Source: Polyangiaceae bacterium (GTDB lineage Bacteria > Myxococcota_A > Polyangia > Polyangiales > Polyangiaceae). Taken from it: DNA of 64,000 nt. Where the stretch lies: positions 248,001-312,000 of the forward strand of contig JAHBVX010000008.1 in NCBI GenBank assembly GCA_019637295.1. Reading direction: 5' to 3'. Numbering within the stretch: the stretch's first letter is position 1; every line of letters starts with the position of its first letter. Of this stretch, positions 37,481 to 43,969 are shown piece by piece. The position numbers were made by a program, and so were the translations under genes. Under the pieces are notes generated by a model. The model did not search any database, had not been told where the DNA came from, and worked only from the letters and a program-made list of their open reading frames with translations.

Positions 37481-37629
37481 GCGGCGCGCAGCATACTCCG
37501 AGCGCCAGGGCGCCCGGGAGGCCCCCCGACTCCGCAGCGTTGCGAGAGCGTCATGCCCCTCATCCCCGAGGATACCTCACGACGAGGTCGTGCTATCTTC
37601 TGGGCTGGGACGGAGCGAAGGGATTGAGC

Positions 37630-38946
37630 ATGACACGTAGACTCCGCGGCTTGGCGACGTCAACCGCGATCGCCACTCTGCTCGCGTCGCTCACCGGTTC
37701 GGCGGCAGTACCGAACCGCTTCACCCAGCAGGGGCGGTTGTTCGACCTGGCGGGTAACGCGCTGACGGGCCCCGTCCAGCTCAAGTTCAGCGTGTATGCC
37801 GCTGGCGTGGGCGGCACCCCGTTATGGACCGAGACGCAGACAGTGACCCTCGACGAGGGGTTCTTCTCTGCGCGCCTCGCTGAGGTCACGCCGTTTCCCT
37901 CGACGCTCTTCGACGGCTCCACGCGCTATCTCGGAATGCAGGTAGGCACGGACTCCGAGATGACACCGCGGCAGGACTTGCTCAGCGTGCCTTACGCACT
38001 GATGGCCAACAACGCAGTGGGTGACATCACGCCGACCAGCATCACCGTCAATGGCACGACCGTGGTTGACTCCAGCGGCAACTGGGTGGGACCTGCGTTG
38101 GGGCTCGTCGGCCCGACCGGGCCGATGGGACCGCCTGGCGCCACGGGTCCCGCTGGCACCCCAGGGGCCCAGGGTCCGGCAGGCGCAACGGGCCCGGCTG
38201 GGGCGCAAGGTCCGTCAGGTCCCGCGGGTCCGGCAGGCGCAACGGGTCCGGTCGGTCCCACCGGCGCGATGGGTTCGACCGGAGCGAGCGGCGCGATCGG
38301 TCCCACGGGCCCGATGGGCCCTGCTGGCGCGCAAGGTCCGGCAGGGGTAACGGGCCCGGTCGGTCCCACCGGCGCGATGGGTTCGAGCGGAGCGACGGGA
38401 GCGACCGGCCCGATCGGGCCTACCGGCCCTCAGGGAGATCCGCGGGACACGTTCACGGTGTGGGGCACCACGACCTGTCCGAGCACGCAGCTCTACACCG
38501 GACACATGGCAGCGATCGTCGGCACCGGCGGAGCGAGCACCAGTATGTGTTTGGATTCGGCCGTGGCCAGTGGTTGGGTTACCTGGGACGGCGCCATGGT
38601 TTGGCGCGCGGTCTCGGCCGGCGGAGGGCTGCGCGGACAGTACGCGAACGGCGCCGTCAACTTCCAGTGCGCAGTGTGTCAAGGCACGGCCTTCACGCGG
38701 TGGGGCTCGACGACGTGCCCGAGCGGCTACACCAAGGCGTACGACGGTTACATTGGAGGGCTGCACGGCGGCTGGGCCAACGGCTGGGGCGCGGGCGGTC
38801 CGGTCTGCCTGCATCCTTCAGCGGGCGGCGCGGTCACCTGGACGAACTGGGACAGCGCGATGATCGTCCGAGGGATCGGCAGCTCCGGGAATAACCGAGT
38901 GAGCTTCCAGAACTCGGTCACCATGCAGTGCGCGGTCTGCTACTGA
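37630..38946 (+). CDS. Secreted collagen-like protein with duplicated short-chain-collagen-type C-terminal domain
   Basis: 438 residues from ATG 37630. Signal peptide about 1-26 ([17 protein letters not shown]). Residues 27-130 form a module also seen ahead of bacterial collagen/tail-fibre regions ([29 protein letters not shown] ... [14 protein letters not shown] ... [13 protein letters not shown]). Residues 161-271 are 37 uninterrupted Gly-X-Y triplets ([16 protein letters not shown] ...). The C-terminus holds two copies (272-350, 351-438) of a Cys-containing domain: WGTTTCP ... CL ... W-D-A-M ... CAVCQ and [10 protein letters not shown] ... Y-G-Y-I-G-G ... CLHP ... W-D-S-A-M ... CAVCY. The 'RWGxTTCPxG ... 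CAVC' pattern recalls the tail domain of sponge/cnidarian short-chain collagen C4. Probably a trimeric surface fibre. Confidence 0.8.
38110..38442 (+). repeat. Collagen Gly-X-Y coding repeat with a 108-base internal duplication
   Basis: 37 codon triplets of Gly-X-Y. Within it, the stretch beginning GGTCCGGCAGG at 38227 recurs almost unchanged at 38335 (108 bases = 12 triplets later), sharing GGTCCCACCGGCGCGATGGG and flanks. This is a recent in-frame duplication that lengthened the helix and a likely site of slippage or recombination. Confidence 0.85.
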
Positions 38947-38993: not shown

Positions 38994-40913
38994 ATGGGCG
39001 TCGAGGCGGGTAGAGCGGGCTGTTCGTGGTCGAGTCGCGGTGTCGTTTGGATTGTCTTGGCCGGCGCGGTCACGGCTGCGGCGGCGCCGGTGGGGTGCAA
39101 CGGCGACGACGATGCTCGCAACGCTCCGGCCCCCTTCTGCGAGAAGCAGCCCGCGGGTAGCGTGCACAACGTGACCGTCGGGTGCGACCAGCGCTGCCCC
39201 GGCGATCCGGGCTGCCCCGCCGGCGGCGACCCGACGTTCTACGCGGGCGCGGCGGTGGAGGACGTGACCCCCGTCGTCGATCACATCGTGGTGTGGGCTC
39301 CGGGTAACGAGGACGGCTACCAGTTCAACCCCCTCGCCGGCGACAAGTGCGTCAAGAAGGGCAGCTGCGATCTCACCGACTACGCCAGCTGCGAGGCGGT
39401 GGACCCGATGAAGTGCACCTGGATCGCCGGCTTCGGCGCGGCCAGGCCCGCGGACGACGTCGCCGATCCGACCACGGTGCGTTGCGTCGTCATGAAGCAG
39501 GGGCACACCAAGGTGGGGCTGTGCGCGGTGGACAACGTGGGTTGGTTCTACAACGAGGTCGAGCAGACCCGTGAGCTGCTCGCGGCGGATCACCCCGAGG
39601 TGGACCTGGACTTCCTGATGGTGGCCTCCACCCACGTGCACGAGACTCAGGACACCCTCGGCATCTGGGGACCGAGCGACGCGCAGTCCGGCGTCAAGCC
39701 CGAGTACAACGCGCTGTTTCGCAAGAAGACCGCCGAGGCGCTCGCGCGCGCCAACGCGGAGCTCCGCCCCGTCCGCCTCGAGTTTGGACGGACGCTCGTG
39801 GATGGTCACATCGCGGGAACGGACCCCGGCGGCCACAAGACCGCCGCCTTCGTGAGCGACACCAGAGATCCCGTGGTGATCGACAGCGAGCTGCGCACCA
39901 TCCGCTTCGTGGCCCAGGCGGATGACGCGACCGTCGCGACGCTGATCAACTTCACGAGTCACCCAGAGTTTGCCGGCAGCCGCCAGCGGCTCACCAGCAG
40001 CGACTTCACCCACACCCTGCGCGAGGGGGTCGAGAAGGGGCTCTCGGTGAAGAGCTCCACGGGCGACACCTTGATGGAGCGCCCCGGCTTCGGTGGAGTG
40101 GCCATCTTCATCAACGGCGCCCTGGGCGGTCAGGTCGGACCTGGCGTCGTGCGTCACGTAGACTTCGAGGGCAACGAAGTGCCGCATGGCATCGAGCGCG
40201 GCTACAACAACGGGCGCTTGCTCGCGGTTTACGCCCACGAGGCCATGACCGTGGGGGTCGAGGTGGCGGAGACCGCGCCGCTGGGCTTCCGCGCGCGGGA
40301 GCTCTACGCGGACGTCCACAACACCGCCTATCACATCGCCATCGCCCAGCAGCTGTTCGAGCGCGCGGGCTACTTCTACGATCCGACGCGCCCGCTCGGT
40401 GACGACAACATCCCCGCCGTGCGCACTCAGATCGCGGTGATCGACGTCGGCCCCGCGGAGATGGTGTCACTGCCCGGGGAGCTGCACGCGGAGCTCTTGC
40501 TCGCCACGCCGGAGGGCGTCACCTCCCTCGACTCGCCCTTCCCCTTCACGCCCGCGCCCTTCGTCGTGCTCAACGATCCCGCGACCAACCCGAACTGCCA
40601 GACCGACGGCTACTCGCGCTGCAACGACGGCCCCCCGGACATCGCCGCCCTGGATCGTACGCGCGTGCTCGATCTCCATCGCGACCCCAAGGCTCGGTTT
40701 CGCTGGGTGCTCGGTCTGGGCCAAGATCAGATCGGGTACATCTTGCCCGCGTACGACTACAAGCTGCACCCGCAGAACCCGTACTTCTCCGAGTACACAC
40801 CCGGGGAACACTACGAAGAGACCAACTCCGTCGGCCCCAACGTCGAGAGCGCCGTGATCGATCCGTTGCTGCAGCTCCTCGGCTCACCCCCCGTGGTGCG
40901 GCGGAAGGACTAG
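38994..40913 (+). CDS. Neutral ceramidase-like secreted lipoprotein
   Basis: 639 residues. Signal with hydrophobic VVWIVLAGAVTAAAAPVGC (lipobox P-V-G-C). Then YAGAAVEDVTPVVDHI, resembling the start of neutral/alkaline non-lysosomal ceramidases ('aG.g..DITPp'), CVVMKQGHTKVGLCAVDNVGW, FLMVASTHVHETQDTLG (matching the zinc-binding 'v.asHtHs.pd' region), LINFTSHPEFAG, AIFINGALGGQVGP ('.N.a.GD.sP' equivalent) and VSLPGELHAELLL ('.t.PGE.t...g.'). The family hydrolyses ceramide or similar N-acyl sphingoids using Zn2+. Extra N-terminal Cys (CEKQPAG ... CDQRCPGDPGCPAGG, CVKKGSCDLTDYASC) is unusual. It follows the collagen-like gene by 47 bases on the same strand. Substrate is uncertain. Confidence 0.7.
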   Translation: MGVEAGRAGCSWSSRGVVWIVLAGAVTAAAAPVGCNGDDDARNAPAPFCEKQPAGSVHNVTVGCDQRCPGDPGCPAGGDPTFYAGAAVEDVTPVVDHIVVWAPGNEDGYQFNPLAGDKCVKKGSCDLTDYASCEAVDPMKCTWIAGFGAARPADDVADPTTVRCVVMKQGHTKVGLCAVDNVGWFYNEVEQTRELLAADHPEVDLDFLMVASTHVHETQDTLGIWGPSDAQSGVKPEYNALFRKKTAEALARANAELRPVRLEFGRTLVDGHIAGTDPGGHKTAAFVSDTRDPVVIDSELRTIRFVAQADDATVATLINFTSHPEFAGSRQRLTSSDFTHTLREGVEKGLSVKSSTGDTLMERPGFGGVAIFINGALGGQVGPGVVRHVDFEGNEVPHGIERGYNNGRLLAVYAHEAMTVGVEVAETAPLGFRARELYADVHNTAYHIAIAQQLFERAGYFYDPTRPLGDDNIPAVRTQIAVIDVGPAEMVSLPGELHAELLLATPEGVTSLDSPFPFTPAPFVVLNDPATNPNCQTDGYSRCNDGPPDIAALDRTRVLDLHRDPKARFRWVLGLGQDQIGYILPAYDYKLHPQNPYFSEYTPGEHYEETNSVGPNVESAVIDPLLQLLGSPPVVRRKD

Positions 40914-41191: not shown

Positions 41192-43969
41192 ATGGCCAAG
41201 AAGCCCAAGGGCGTGCTCGACGTGTCGGATGTCTTGAACGCGTGGGTGGAGCGTGATCTGACCGCGGACGCCGAAGAGGGCAAGCTCCCGCCGGCGTTCG
41301 AGGTGGACGCGCTCGTCGCTCAGCTCAGCGAGGCCGTGGGTTCGGGCAGGCACCCGGTCGTTTCGGGCGACAGCGGTGTGGGCAAGTCCGCGCTGGTGTT
41401 CGAGCTGGTGCGACGCGTGGTCGCTGGCAGCGGCCCCCCGGCCCTCGCCGGCCGGCCGATCCTGCAGATCTCGTTTCGCAGTCGGCTGTCGGCGCTGCTC
41501 AAGCCCGAGCAGCTCCGCCCGGAGACGCAGAAGCTGGTGACCGCCCTACTCGCCGTGGGCGACCAGGTCGTGCCCTACTTCCGCGACTTCGAGCTGGTCT
41601 ACAGCCTGGACCTGGAGCCGCAGCTGCAGCTGCTCGCGCTCAGGTTTCCCGGCGTCATCCTGGCCGAAGGGGACGGACGAGGCGTGGACACGCTGCTGGA
41701 AGCGACGCCCGAGCTCGATCGACGATTCCTCGCGGTCAAGGTCCCCGAGCCGGATCTGGCGACGACCGCGCGCATGCTCGCCGCCTGGGCAAAGCATGGC
41801 GAAGCGAGCGATGTCCGCTTCGAGGCCGAGGCGCTCAGCACCGGGCTGGAGCTCGCTCACCGCTTCCTCTCCCGCACCAACCTGCCGCGCAAGGCCATCG
41901 ACTTCCTCGCCCAGGTCGGCAGCGTCGTGGGTACCGAGCGCAGCGTGCAGGCGACGGACGTCGTGGATCGATTCCACACGGCGTACAAGATCCCTCGGCT
42001 CCTGATCGACCCGCGCGTGCCCTTCGATCCGGTCGCCACCGAGCGCGAATACGAGAGTCGCGTGCTCGAACAATCCGAGGCCGTCAGCGCGGTGGTGCGC
42101 ATGATCAGCATGATCAAGGCGGGGCTGTCGGACAGTCGCCGACCGTTTGGCTCGTTCTTGTTCGTGGGGCCCACCGGCGTGGGCAAGACGCACATCGCTC
42201 AGCTCCTGGCAGAGCACCTGTTCGGCAGCCGTGAGCGGCTCGTCCGCGTGAACATGGCGGACTACCCGGGCAACGACGACGCCGTCAACGTGTTCGGCAA
42301 CCCCCACGCCTACACCGTGCCCGCGCGGCGCGGCGAGCTCACGCAGCGCCTGCTCGGGCACCCGTTCGCGGTGCTGCTCCTCGACGAGTTCGAGAAGGCC
42401 AACGAGAAGATCCACGATCGCTTCCTGCAGCTCGTGGACGAAGGCGTGTTCGTCAACGGCGCTGGGGAGACCGTCTCCTGTCGGTCCATGATCGTGGTCG
42501 CCACGTCGAACGCGGGCGCCGAGGTGTATCGCACGCCGGGCATCGGGTTCTCGCCCAGCGGAGACTTGGCGCTGCAGGATCGCGAGCTGGACCGGCGCCT
42601 GCTCTCGCACTTCCGCCTCGAGTTCCTCAATCGCTTCGACCAAGTGGTTCACTTCCACCCGCTGTCCCGCGGTGGGATCCGCAAGATCGCGCTGCGCGAG
42701 ATCCAGCAGCTCCGCGCCCGCAGCGGGCTCGTCTCCCAGGGGCTCGATCTCGAGGTGGATGACGCCGTGCTCGATTGGCTGGCGGTACACGGCTACGACC
42801 CGCACTATGGCGCGCGCTTCCTGCGTCGCGCGATCGAGCGTCACGTCACCACGGCGCTCGCGGACGTGATCGTCACCGAGAACCCCCGGCGCGGGGCGAA
42901 GCTCTCGCTCGGCGTGCGGGCGGGCCGGGTGTTCGCGCGCGTGCTCGGGTCTGCGTCCGACGAAGAGCGCGCAGCCAAGGTGCGCTTGCCCCTGGGCACG
43001 ACCGAGCGGGTCCGCTCCCTCGACCGCCCGGCGCTCATCGGCGAGGCGCAGCGGCTGCTCGAGCGCAGCCAGCCTCGCCGGGAGAAGCTCGAGGCCAGGC
43101 GCCACCGGCTCGCAGAGCTGCTGGAGACCATGAACACGTCCGGCTTCTGGGACGCTCCGGCGGAAGGGCGCCCGATCCTGGAGGAGTATCGCGAGCTCGA
43201 CGTGGCGATCCAGACCGAGACCCGGCTCGCCGGTCCCATCGAGCGGCTCGGCCAGGCGGTCAGCGATGCGAAGGTCTCGTCGCCAGTGCTCGGCTCGATG
43301 CTGGAGCAGGCCGCGCGCTCGCTGGCCGACTGGGAGCGCCGCGCGGCCGAGCAAGGCGTGAGTGCAGTGTGGCTCGTGCTCAAGGACGCGGATCCGATGA
43401 GCGTCAAGAGCGAGGCCCTCGAGCAGCTCGTGCAGATGGAGCGTGCCTGGTGCCGTCGCCTGCACCTGGCCGCGGAGTTGGTCGCGTTCGGCGAGGGCGA
43501 CGCGGGTCCGAACCGCGCTGTGCTCGAAGTGGAGGGCCCTGGTGCGCTCACCTATTTGGAGATGGAGCGAGGTCAGCACCGCCTACACCACAGCGACGGG
43601 CCGGATGGTCGCGTGTTCGTGGACCTGGTGCCGCAGCGACGAAGCGGCTCGCACGCCTCGTCCGTGCACGGCACGAGCCGCCGCCAAGCCCTCGGCCTGG
43701 ACGCCTCGTTCTTCGGCCGGGTTCAGCGTGGCGAGCTGGCGTTGGAGCTGTTCGGCAGCGACCGGGACACCCTGGGACGGCTGCTCGCGGACCTGGAAGG
43801 AGCCGCGCCGGCCGAGTCCAACGAGCTCGCCCGGGTCTACCGTGCGGACGGCGCGGGTGCGCGGGATCCGCGCACCCACGCGTCGGTGGCGCGCTTCAAG
43901 GACGTGATGGCCGGTCGGCTCGATGCGCTGCTCGACGCCTGGCAAGCGCACAGCGCGAGAGAGCTCTGA
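41192..43969 (+). CDS. ClpB-like AAA+ unfoldase fused to a class I release-factor-like domain (GGQ absent)
   Basis: 925 residues from ATG 41192. AAA-1: Walker A GDSGVGKS (59-66); its Walker B (GVILAEGDG, 154-162) is degenerate. AAA-2: GPTGVGKT (326-333), LLLDEFEKA (395-403), sensor ATSNAG (437-442), arginine-finger LNRFDQVV (479-486), then ClpB-type D2-small GYDPHYGARFLRRAIER (534-550). No ClpP loop is seen. Residues about 614-920 read as a peptide chain release factor: EARRHRLAELLETMNTSGFWDAP (RF2 N-helices, usually ..P.vWdd..), MERAWCRRLHLAAEL and ALTYLEMERGQHRLHHSDGPDGR (RF 'aYG.l..E.GvHRLvR.sPfds.gR'), and RVYRADGAGARDPRTHASVARFKDVMAGRLDALLDA (RF 'iRsY.f....v.DhRt......vl.G.LD.fi.a'). The GGQ segment is replaced by a Ser/Arg-rich stretch, so it cannot release peptides. 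Probably a ribosome-targeted unfoldase. Confidence 0.82.
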   Translation: MAKKPKGVLDVSDVLNAWVERDLTADAEEGKLPPAFEVDALVAQLSEAVGSGRHPVVSGDSGVGKSALVFELVRRVVAGSGPPALAGRPILQISFRSRLSALLKPEQLRPETQKLVTALLAVGDQVVPYFRDFELVYSLDLEPQLQLLALRFPGVILAEGDGRGVDTLLEATPELDRRFLAVKVPEPDLATTARMLAAWAKHGEASDVRFEAEALSTGLELAHRFLSRTNLPRKAIDFLAQVGSVVGTERSVQATDVVDRFHTAYKIPRLLIDPRVPFDPVATEREYESRVLEQSEAVSAVVRMISMIKAGLSDSRRPFGSFLFVGPTGVGKTHIAQLLAEHLFGSRERLVRVNMADYPGNDDAVNVFGNPHAYTVPARRGELTQRLLGHPFAVLLLDEFEKANEKIHDRFLQLVDEGVFVNGAGETVSCRSMIVVATSNAGAEVYRTPGIGFSPSGDLALQDRELDRRLLSHFRLEFLNRFDQVVHFHPLSRGGIRKIALREIQQLRARSGLVSQGLDLEVDDAVLDWLAVHGYDPHYGARFLRRAIERHVTTALADVIVTENPRRGAKLSLGVRAGRVFARVLGSASDEERAAKVRLPLGTTERVRSLDRPALIGEAQRLLERSQPRREKLEARRHRLAELLETMNTSGFWDAPAEGRPILEEYRELDVAIQTETRLAGPIERLGQAVSDAKVSSPVLGSMLEQAARSLADWERRAAEQGVSAVWLVLKDADPMSVKSEALEQLVQMERAWCRRLHLAAELVAFGEGDAGPNRAVLEVEGPGALTYLEMERGQHRLHHSDGPDGRVFVDLVPQRRSGSHASSVHGTSRRQALGLDASFFGRVQRGELALELFGSDRDTLGRLLADLEGAAPAESNELARVYRADGAGARDPRTHASVARFKDVMAGRLDALLDAWQAHSAREL

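Follow-up and report, generated by a model that had tools for sequence, protein, structure and literature searches.

Release factors (RFs) and Clp ATPases are old and heavily studied proteins, and we found no description of both in one protein. RF-type domains acting outside normal termination are represented by PrfH, ArfB, Dom34 and Vms1 in the available part of a survey of RFs (PMC6514570), according to which Vms1 has its RF-type domain paired in trans with the AAA+ ATPase Cdc48. Among the ATPases, ClpI of Actinomycetota was found bioinformatically as an extra Clp class beside ClpB and ClpC (PMC10149685, in the part available). Here we describe a gene that joins a Clp-type ATPase to an RF2-like tail, located at 41192-43969 of a 64,000-nt stretch of a Polyangiaceae genome (contig JAHBVX010000008.1; the whole stretch is called the window).

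The fusion differs from each of these systems. PrfH and ArfB both keep the catalytic Gln, and Dom34 and Vms1 are of the archaeo-eukaryotic RF type, which has an unrelated structure (PMC6514570, same part). ClpI possesses both an N- and an M-domain, and the term 'release factor' has 0 occurrences in the available main text of PMC10149685. Likewise, 'Clp' has 0 occurrences in the available part of the RF survey, which mentions no Clp fusion. A first-pass annotation, made from the sequence alone, knew of no described system with this architecture; this held in that part of the survey and in the full-text literature searched, which leaves subscription papers and preprints outside, and such an absence is no proof.

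An RF2 fold behind a Clp-type ATPase

The encoded protein is a two-module AAA+ ATPase of the ClpA/ClpC class, without N- and M-domains, which carries a C-terminal RF2 fold minus the catalytic and decoding motifs. In its 925 residues Pfam finds AAA_16 (37-118), AAA_lid_9 (192-257), AAA_2 (317-484), ClpB_D2-small (491-569) and PCRF (744-798; 27.6 bits, cut-off 24), and the NCBIfam model prfB matches residues 632-798 (E 6.5e-8, 32 bits, compared with an equivalog-type cut-off of 370). The start ATG at 41192 agrees with orthologues opening with MAKK or MGKK. An AlphaFold2 model of the whole protein (20 orthologues) has a mean predicted local distance difference test score (pLDDT) of 86, with values below 50 only at residues 1-6 and at the joint of motor and tail (588-604). 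The open reading frame (ORF), the Pfam matches and the models bear out the two AAA+ modules of the first-pass annotation, a degenerate D1 and a complete D2, and the same layout is found in 31 different fusion proteins, 29 of them long and two N-terminally short (L096, L110).

The tail shows full-length homology to RF2 (prfB) and RF1, from the helical domain with its FW motif through the PCRF part with E-x-G-x-H-R to the C-terminal block. A PDB search with the window tail alone gave 10 sequences at E <= 1; nine of these are RF2, the best at 0.0018, and the tenth, at 0.73, is unrelated. With a profile of 20 tails, all 40 sequences at E <= 10 are RF2 or RF1, mitochondrial RF1 included; the best is RF2 chain 9fy1_8 (E 8.6e-20, positions 11-317 of 322), and RF1 is reached at E ~7e-13. 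hhalign aligned the tail profile with 11 locus-derived RFs over 310 columns (probability 99.5, E 3.8e-23). The sole Pfam family in the tails at E <= 0.01 is PCRF, present in 20/20.

The predicted structure agrees with the profiles. A tail-only model (pLDDT 91) has E. coli RF2 (1gqe) as its best fold match (VIA Z 21.8, root-mean-square deviation 5.0, 303 residues; Foldseek E 2.0e-13). The Foldseek TM-score is moderate at 0.59, which may reflect movement of RF domains against each other. A fold search with the whole model returned a list filled with Clp chains and says nothing on the tail, and the charge of the tail was uninformative as a sign of ribosomal RNA binding. The segments GFWDAP, ERGQHRL and RVY...RDPRT...GRLDALLDA, first reported as RF1/RF2 signatures in their proper order, line up with the corresponding RF2 segments. 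By simple string search FW is retained in 26/31 tails, G-x-H-R in 30/31, R-x-Y in 31/31 and D-x-R-T in 30/31. The comparisons proposed in the first-pass annotation, namely a profile search of the tail for RF or PCRF matches, a fold comparison with RF2 and a genome search for further fusions, all gave positive results.

The tail differs from RF2 and RF1 in the motifs it has lost, in its reduced GGQ domain and in its place behind an ATPase. GGQ is found at the GGQ loop in none of the 31 fusion tails compared with all 11 control RFs, and PF00472 (RF-1, the GGQ domain) has no match in the 20 tails analysed with Pfam at E <= 0.01, in agreement with the loss of GGQ first read from the sequence. SPF, which serves RF2 in stop-codon recognition, is absent from all 31 tails and present in 10 of the 11 controls (the exception, L125, is an RF1 by inspection). 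The GGx[DE]A helix tip is missing at the homologous place in all 31 tails and present in 11/11 controls. Stray GGQ strings in L065 and L101 and a GGTDA in L070 sit elsewhere in the tails (positions by inspection). Since SPF and the helix tip are lost, RF-style ribosome recognition cannot be assumed, and the earlier statement that the protein 'recognises ribosomes like a release factor' does not stand as written.

For the motor, motifs were counted in 34 members (the 31 fusions and three tail-less relatives, with the diverged L082 excluded) and in four outgroup Clp rows, four of the eight outgroup loci tried having no ORF that passed the filter. D2 keeps Walker B, the arginine-finger region and sensor 2 in 34/34 members and Walker A in 20/20, from which ATP hydrolysis in D2 of the ring is expected. 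D1 has an intact Walker A (GDSGVGKS) and a degenerate Walker B, as described before: the Asp is kept (D132 in the window protein), the Glu is lost, and this catalytic Glu is absent in all 32 members covering that stretch. There is no Clp N-domain, with D1 starting at about residue 12 and no such domain among the Pfam families listed (25 of 32). Nor is there any sign of an M-domain, D1 being short and the model having no long coiled coil.

The motor shares with ClpC and ClpA, the Hsp100 partners of ClpP, two AAA+ modules, the D2-small domain, the D2 ATPase motifs and a docking-type GF loop; it lacks their N-domain, D1 Walker B Glu and GYVG pore loop and has the RF-like tail in addition. The loop, a hydrophobic-G-F tripeptide (M and F variants included), occurs in 34/34 members and in three of the four outgroup rows, and aligns with VGF of Bacillus subtilis ClpC. 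According to the available part of PMC10149685, an LGF loop serves as the docking element for ClpP and is found in ClpC but not in ClpB. D2 is equally close to ClpB (phmmer E 4.7e-58) and ClpC (E 5.6e-58), and the fold matches of the motor are Hsp104, ClpB, ClpC and ClpA (Z 26-30, ~29 for ClpB/Hsp104). Given the GF loop, the missing N- and M-domains and a ClpB equivalog score of 280 bits compared with a cut-off of 1232, we do not retain the earlier label 'ClpB-like'.

GYVG is missing from the D2 pore loop in 34/34 members and present in 4/4 outgroup rows, which makes classical threading uncertain. Counted by hand, the pore position has Tyr in 7/34 members, Y374 of the window protein among them, and His in 10/34; Y374 is not conserved. 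The 'ATP-driven unfolding' proposed in the first-pass annotation likewise does not stand as written: the D2 ATPase motifs are kept, but the substrate-gripping loop is gone.

Spread and genomic setting of the fusion

In 377 genomes of the phylum, 20 places matched at E <= 4.5e-13. Every one is a fusion, that of the window among them, and one (L050/L081) is broken. Weaker matches, down to E 0.001, lie mostly in RF-sized ORFs (not each inspected), and a few belong to diverged fusions (L082, L084). Across 108 genomes of the window's family the canonical fusion is present in two, the window's own (G000) and G023; three genomes of genus g265 have weaker, uninspected matches in ORFs of 912-921 residues, the remaining matches, not each of them inspected, are mostly RF-sized ORFs, and nine genomes have no match. 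A contig scan with the single window tail gave no match, and with the tail profile it gave 36 loci, many of which are contigs already in the set (L118 is broken and L115 is cut by the contig end). Their titles name Deltaproteobacteria or Myxococcota and metagenome-assembled genomes of Planctomycetota, Binatia and Acidobacteria. The fusion family is thus conserved but sporadic, in Myxococcota and in metagenome-assembled genomes labelled as these three other groups.

In a midpoint-rooted tree of the AAA part (L119, a duplicate of L111, and L115 left out, L082 kept), the fusions, L082 and three tail-less Gimesia-type proteins form one group of 35 with support 100/100. The inner order is poorly resolved, but members of different phyla are intermingled, a pattern suggestive of horizontal transfer or patchy loss. 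The sister of the window fusion is that of G023, and L082 sits on a very long branch. The three Gimesia-type Planctomycetota proteins (L121:3856-5805, L122:57-1928, L123:4483-6354) consist of the AAA part alone (624-650 residues), with about 48% identity to the window motor and the GF loop kept; the ORFs of the available stretches include no RF tail. At L081:9502-11227 (G212, the same contig as L118) a fusion lies in pieces in different frames beside rpsA, either a pseudogene or an assembly fault. The record titles of L094 (Klebsiella pneumoniae) and L093 (Rhodobacterales) look mislabelled, their counterparts L072 and L066 being from the window's phylum. A mobile or defence gene was rejected: no fusion match was found in plasmids or phages and none was confirmed in viral contigs, and PADLOC matches are confined to the generic AAA part.

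The window genome carries GGQ-bearing RF1- and RF2-like ORFs (named by inspection), a third PF00472 match and a transfer-messenger RNA (tmRNA) of 129 bits, so the tail is unneeded for termination. We therefore rejected the fusion as a replacement for RF2 or for tmRNA in this genome. Across 18 fusion genomes tmRNA is above the cut-off in 12; the other six (G023, G220, G300, G225, G233 and G157, 75-94% complete) have sub-cut-off matches only, which mean nothing because archaeal controls show them too. Convincing ClpP is present in 16 of the 18, the window's own included. The two others, G023 and G225, have weak matches in ORFs of other sizes (drafts 92% and 88% complete).

Translation genes adjoin the fusion in three lineages. 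In nine loci of two genera rpsA lies downstream on the same strand, and in four of these (L072, L073, L074, L081) cmk lies upstream. In L097 a same-strand metG ends ~10 nt upstream of the fusion, and in L098 a same-strand cysS ends ~14 nt upstream (script-called start). An S1-like protein is encoded ~5.5 kb away in L070.

Possible roles of the fusion

Our preferred reading, with a probability of roughly 0.4, is that the RF-derived tail targets the Clp-type ATPase to ribosomes or translation complexes, where D2 would remodel a bound component. The tail would replace the usual Clp substrate-recognition domains and would guide the ring, presumably a hexamer, to ribosomes or to translation complexes bound to them, at the A site or factor-binding region, itself presumably neither reading stop codons nor hydrolysing peptidyl-tRNA. 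The D2 motor would spend ATP on remodelling or extracting the bound component, for instance a stalled nascent chain or a rescue or termination factor, and D1 probably binds nucleotide but hydrolyses little of it. Hand-over to ClpP through the conserved GF loop is possible, and the fusion would act alongside the cell's RF1, RF2, tmRNA and ClpP, not in their stead. Points for this reading are the full-tail RF2 homology, the D2 motifs, the GF loop together with ClpP, the RF1, RF2 and tmRNA that the window genome has besides the fusion, the translation-gene neighbours in three lineages and the existence of one clade across several phyla. The observation made from the sequence is confirmed, and its interpretation is partly supported.

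A number of results weigh against ribosome targeting. The tails have lost GGQ, SPF and the helix tip, D2 has lost GYVG, the AAA part exists without a tail in the Gimesia-type proteins, and the genome of the window's sister fusion (G023) has no convincing ClpP or tmRNA match. The nine rpsA loci belong to one family, and in L072 the gap between fusion and rpsA is ~270 nt. The remaining scanned neighbours are unrelated or unassigned (not every neighbour was scanned), and those in the window itself say nothing on function. Over ~20 lineages and ~40 neighbours (hand count), the probability of three translation neighbours is P = 0.12-0.21 when translational genes are taken as 3-4% of the total. The neighbour search proposed in the first-pass annotation thus did find rpsA, metG and cysS beside the fusion, a suggestive but not significant result. 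A strong operon argument is weakened for this reason, and cmk lies upstream in only 4/9 of the rpsA loci.

The main rival, which we find somewhat doubtful, takes the RF fold as a general protein-protein or oligomerisation module with no ribosome role left, on an ATPase that remodels an unnamed client. The loss of the decoding and catalytic motifs fits this, as does the majority of scanned neighbours, which are not translational. The tail also diverges faster than the motor (27-45% vs 44-60% identity to the window), and by inspection its conserved residues look like fold-core positions. Against it, fusions of several phyla have retained the architecture of an RF together with its helical domain, and translation genes adjoin the fusion in three lineages. 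An unlikely alternative is a ribosome-occluding or hibernation (protection) factor, whose dead RF tail would plug the A site while the ring times its release without threading. Such a factor would account for an RF fold without hydrolytic or decoding motifs, the lost GYVG and the rpsA neighbourhood of one family, and the inactive RF paralogue Dom34 is a precedent at the ribosome (PMC6514570, available part); yet no hibernation gene is among the scanned neighbours (not all neighbours), and the conserved GF loop would have no role.

Slightly less likely still is a regulated ClpP partner with the tail as degron or adaptor receptor, the proteolysis being of the ordinary regulated kind and only the recognition domain unusual. 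The hydrophobic-G-F loop in 34/34 members, its value as a marker (PMC10149685, available part) and ClpP in 16/18 genomes speak for it. Against it stand the two genomes without convincing ClpP (G023, G225), the absent GYVG with Tyr in just 7/34 and His in 10/34 at the pore position, and the C-terminal place of the tail where recognition domains usually are N-terminal. An artefact, be it a frame or assembly accident or a chance likeness to RF motifs, has next to no probability and was rejected: one related locus (L081) is indeed in pieces across frames, but 31 different fusions with a common layout, from many assemblies, are not chance, and the profile and fold matches (E 8.6e-20, Z 21.8, PCRF 20/20) lie far beyond it.

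By analogy, we also consider a bolder version of ribosome targeting, which we hold to be rather improbable as a whole. The fusion could be a one-polypeptide bacterial counterpart of Vms1-Cdc48, in which a dead RF aims a Clp motor at stalled or terminating ribosomes and the extracted chains or factors pass to ClpP; it could then represent, in compact form, a larger, diverged group to which arrayed ClpA-like genes of Myxococcota also belong. An RF fold minus its catalytic and decoding motifs, tied to a motor in several phyla, would show the RF fold as a targeting module. The fusion hints at an undescribed link between a remodelling machine and the ribosome and gives a direct route to test for an undescribed pathway of quality control linked to ribosomes. 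Even a tail that fails to bind ribosomes would be a rare recruitment of a core translation factor to a new job.

Feature coordinates and the wider group of tails

The features of the gene are listed in Table 1. The gene is isolated in the window, with a convergent gene downstream and a Pfam-less protein upstream. The latter (38994-40910, + strand, directly upstream) has 639 residues and no Pfam match at E <= 0.001, and the ORF at 37540-38946 (+ strand) has extended collagen-like GPx repeats.

Table 1. Features of the fusion gene in window positions, followed by a second RF2-like match in another genus
Feature	Position	Strand	Basis
Whole gene, 925 aa, Clp-type ATPase with RF2-like tail	41192..43969	+	ORF; orthologues
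AAA+ module D1, residues ~12-270; Walker A GDSGVGKS, D132 kept, catalytic Glu lost	41225..42001	+	
D1 Walker A, residues 59-66	41366..41389	+	
AAA+ module D2, residues ~281-484; Walker A, Walker B DE, sensor 1 and arginine-finger regions present	42032..42643	+	
D2 Walker A GPTGVGKT, residues 326-333	42167..42190	+	
D2 pore-loop-1 region, residues 366-381; FGNPHAYTVPARRG in place of GYVG	42287..42334	+	
D2 Walker B, residues 394-399	42371..42388	+	
GIGF loop, residues 450-453, at the position of the ClpC ClpP-docking loop	42539..42550	+	
ClpB_D2-small domain, residues 491-569, sensor 2 GAR	42662..42898	+	
Release-factor-2-like tail, residues 606-925 (320 aa)	43007..43966	+	
Equivalent of RF helical domain 1 with FW motif, residues 612-721	43025..43354	+	
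PCRF-matching part, residues 744-798, ends E-x-G-x-H-R; without GGx[DE]A tip and SPF	43421..43585	+	
Putative reduced GGQ-domain remnant, residues 825-870, GGQ loop gone	43664..43801	+	alignment and model
C-terminal RF block R-x-Y...D-x-RT...G-x-L, residues 879-924	43826..43963	+	
Second RF2-like match, genus g15	G365:C1:13067070-13067558; similar places in G392, G394, G439, G440		

RF-like tails are also found on other ClpA-like proteins, namely L082 (tail profile E 3e-35), L084 (E 3e-5) and, by eye, L062. The L082 protein (L082:1265-3901), whose D2 no longer has Walker B or the GF loop either, is perhaps a dead ATPase.

Myxococcota also have arrays of two to three adjacent ClpA-like genes (L128:10550-19691, L130, L134, L135, L136, L139 and others). 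The tails of the first genes are probable diverged RF2 homologues, judging from their profiles: the PDB profile search finds RF2 at E 0.00037 over the helical part, the G-x-H-R part finds RF2 or RF1 at E 0.05-0.3 (with some coiled-coil proteins at >= 0.09), and hhalign gives a probability of 95.5 for the match to RFs. This tail type is present in 15/59 relatives and gives no match in the window genome at E <= 1e-8. The tails of the second genes have no clear RF match (probability 11.7 with RFs, 66.5 with the fusion tails), and the third genes have no tail. Finally, in genus g15 the second, weaker RF2-like match of Table 1 lies in an ORF of 346-361 residues, beside the usual prfB-like match.

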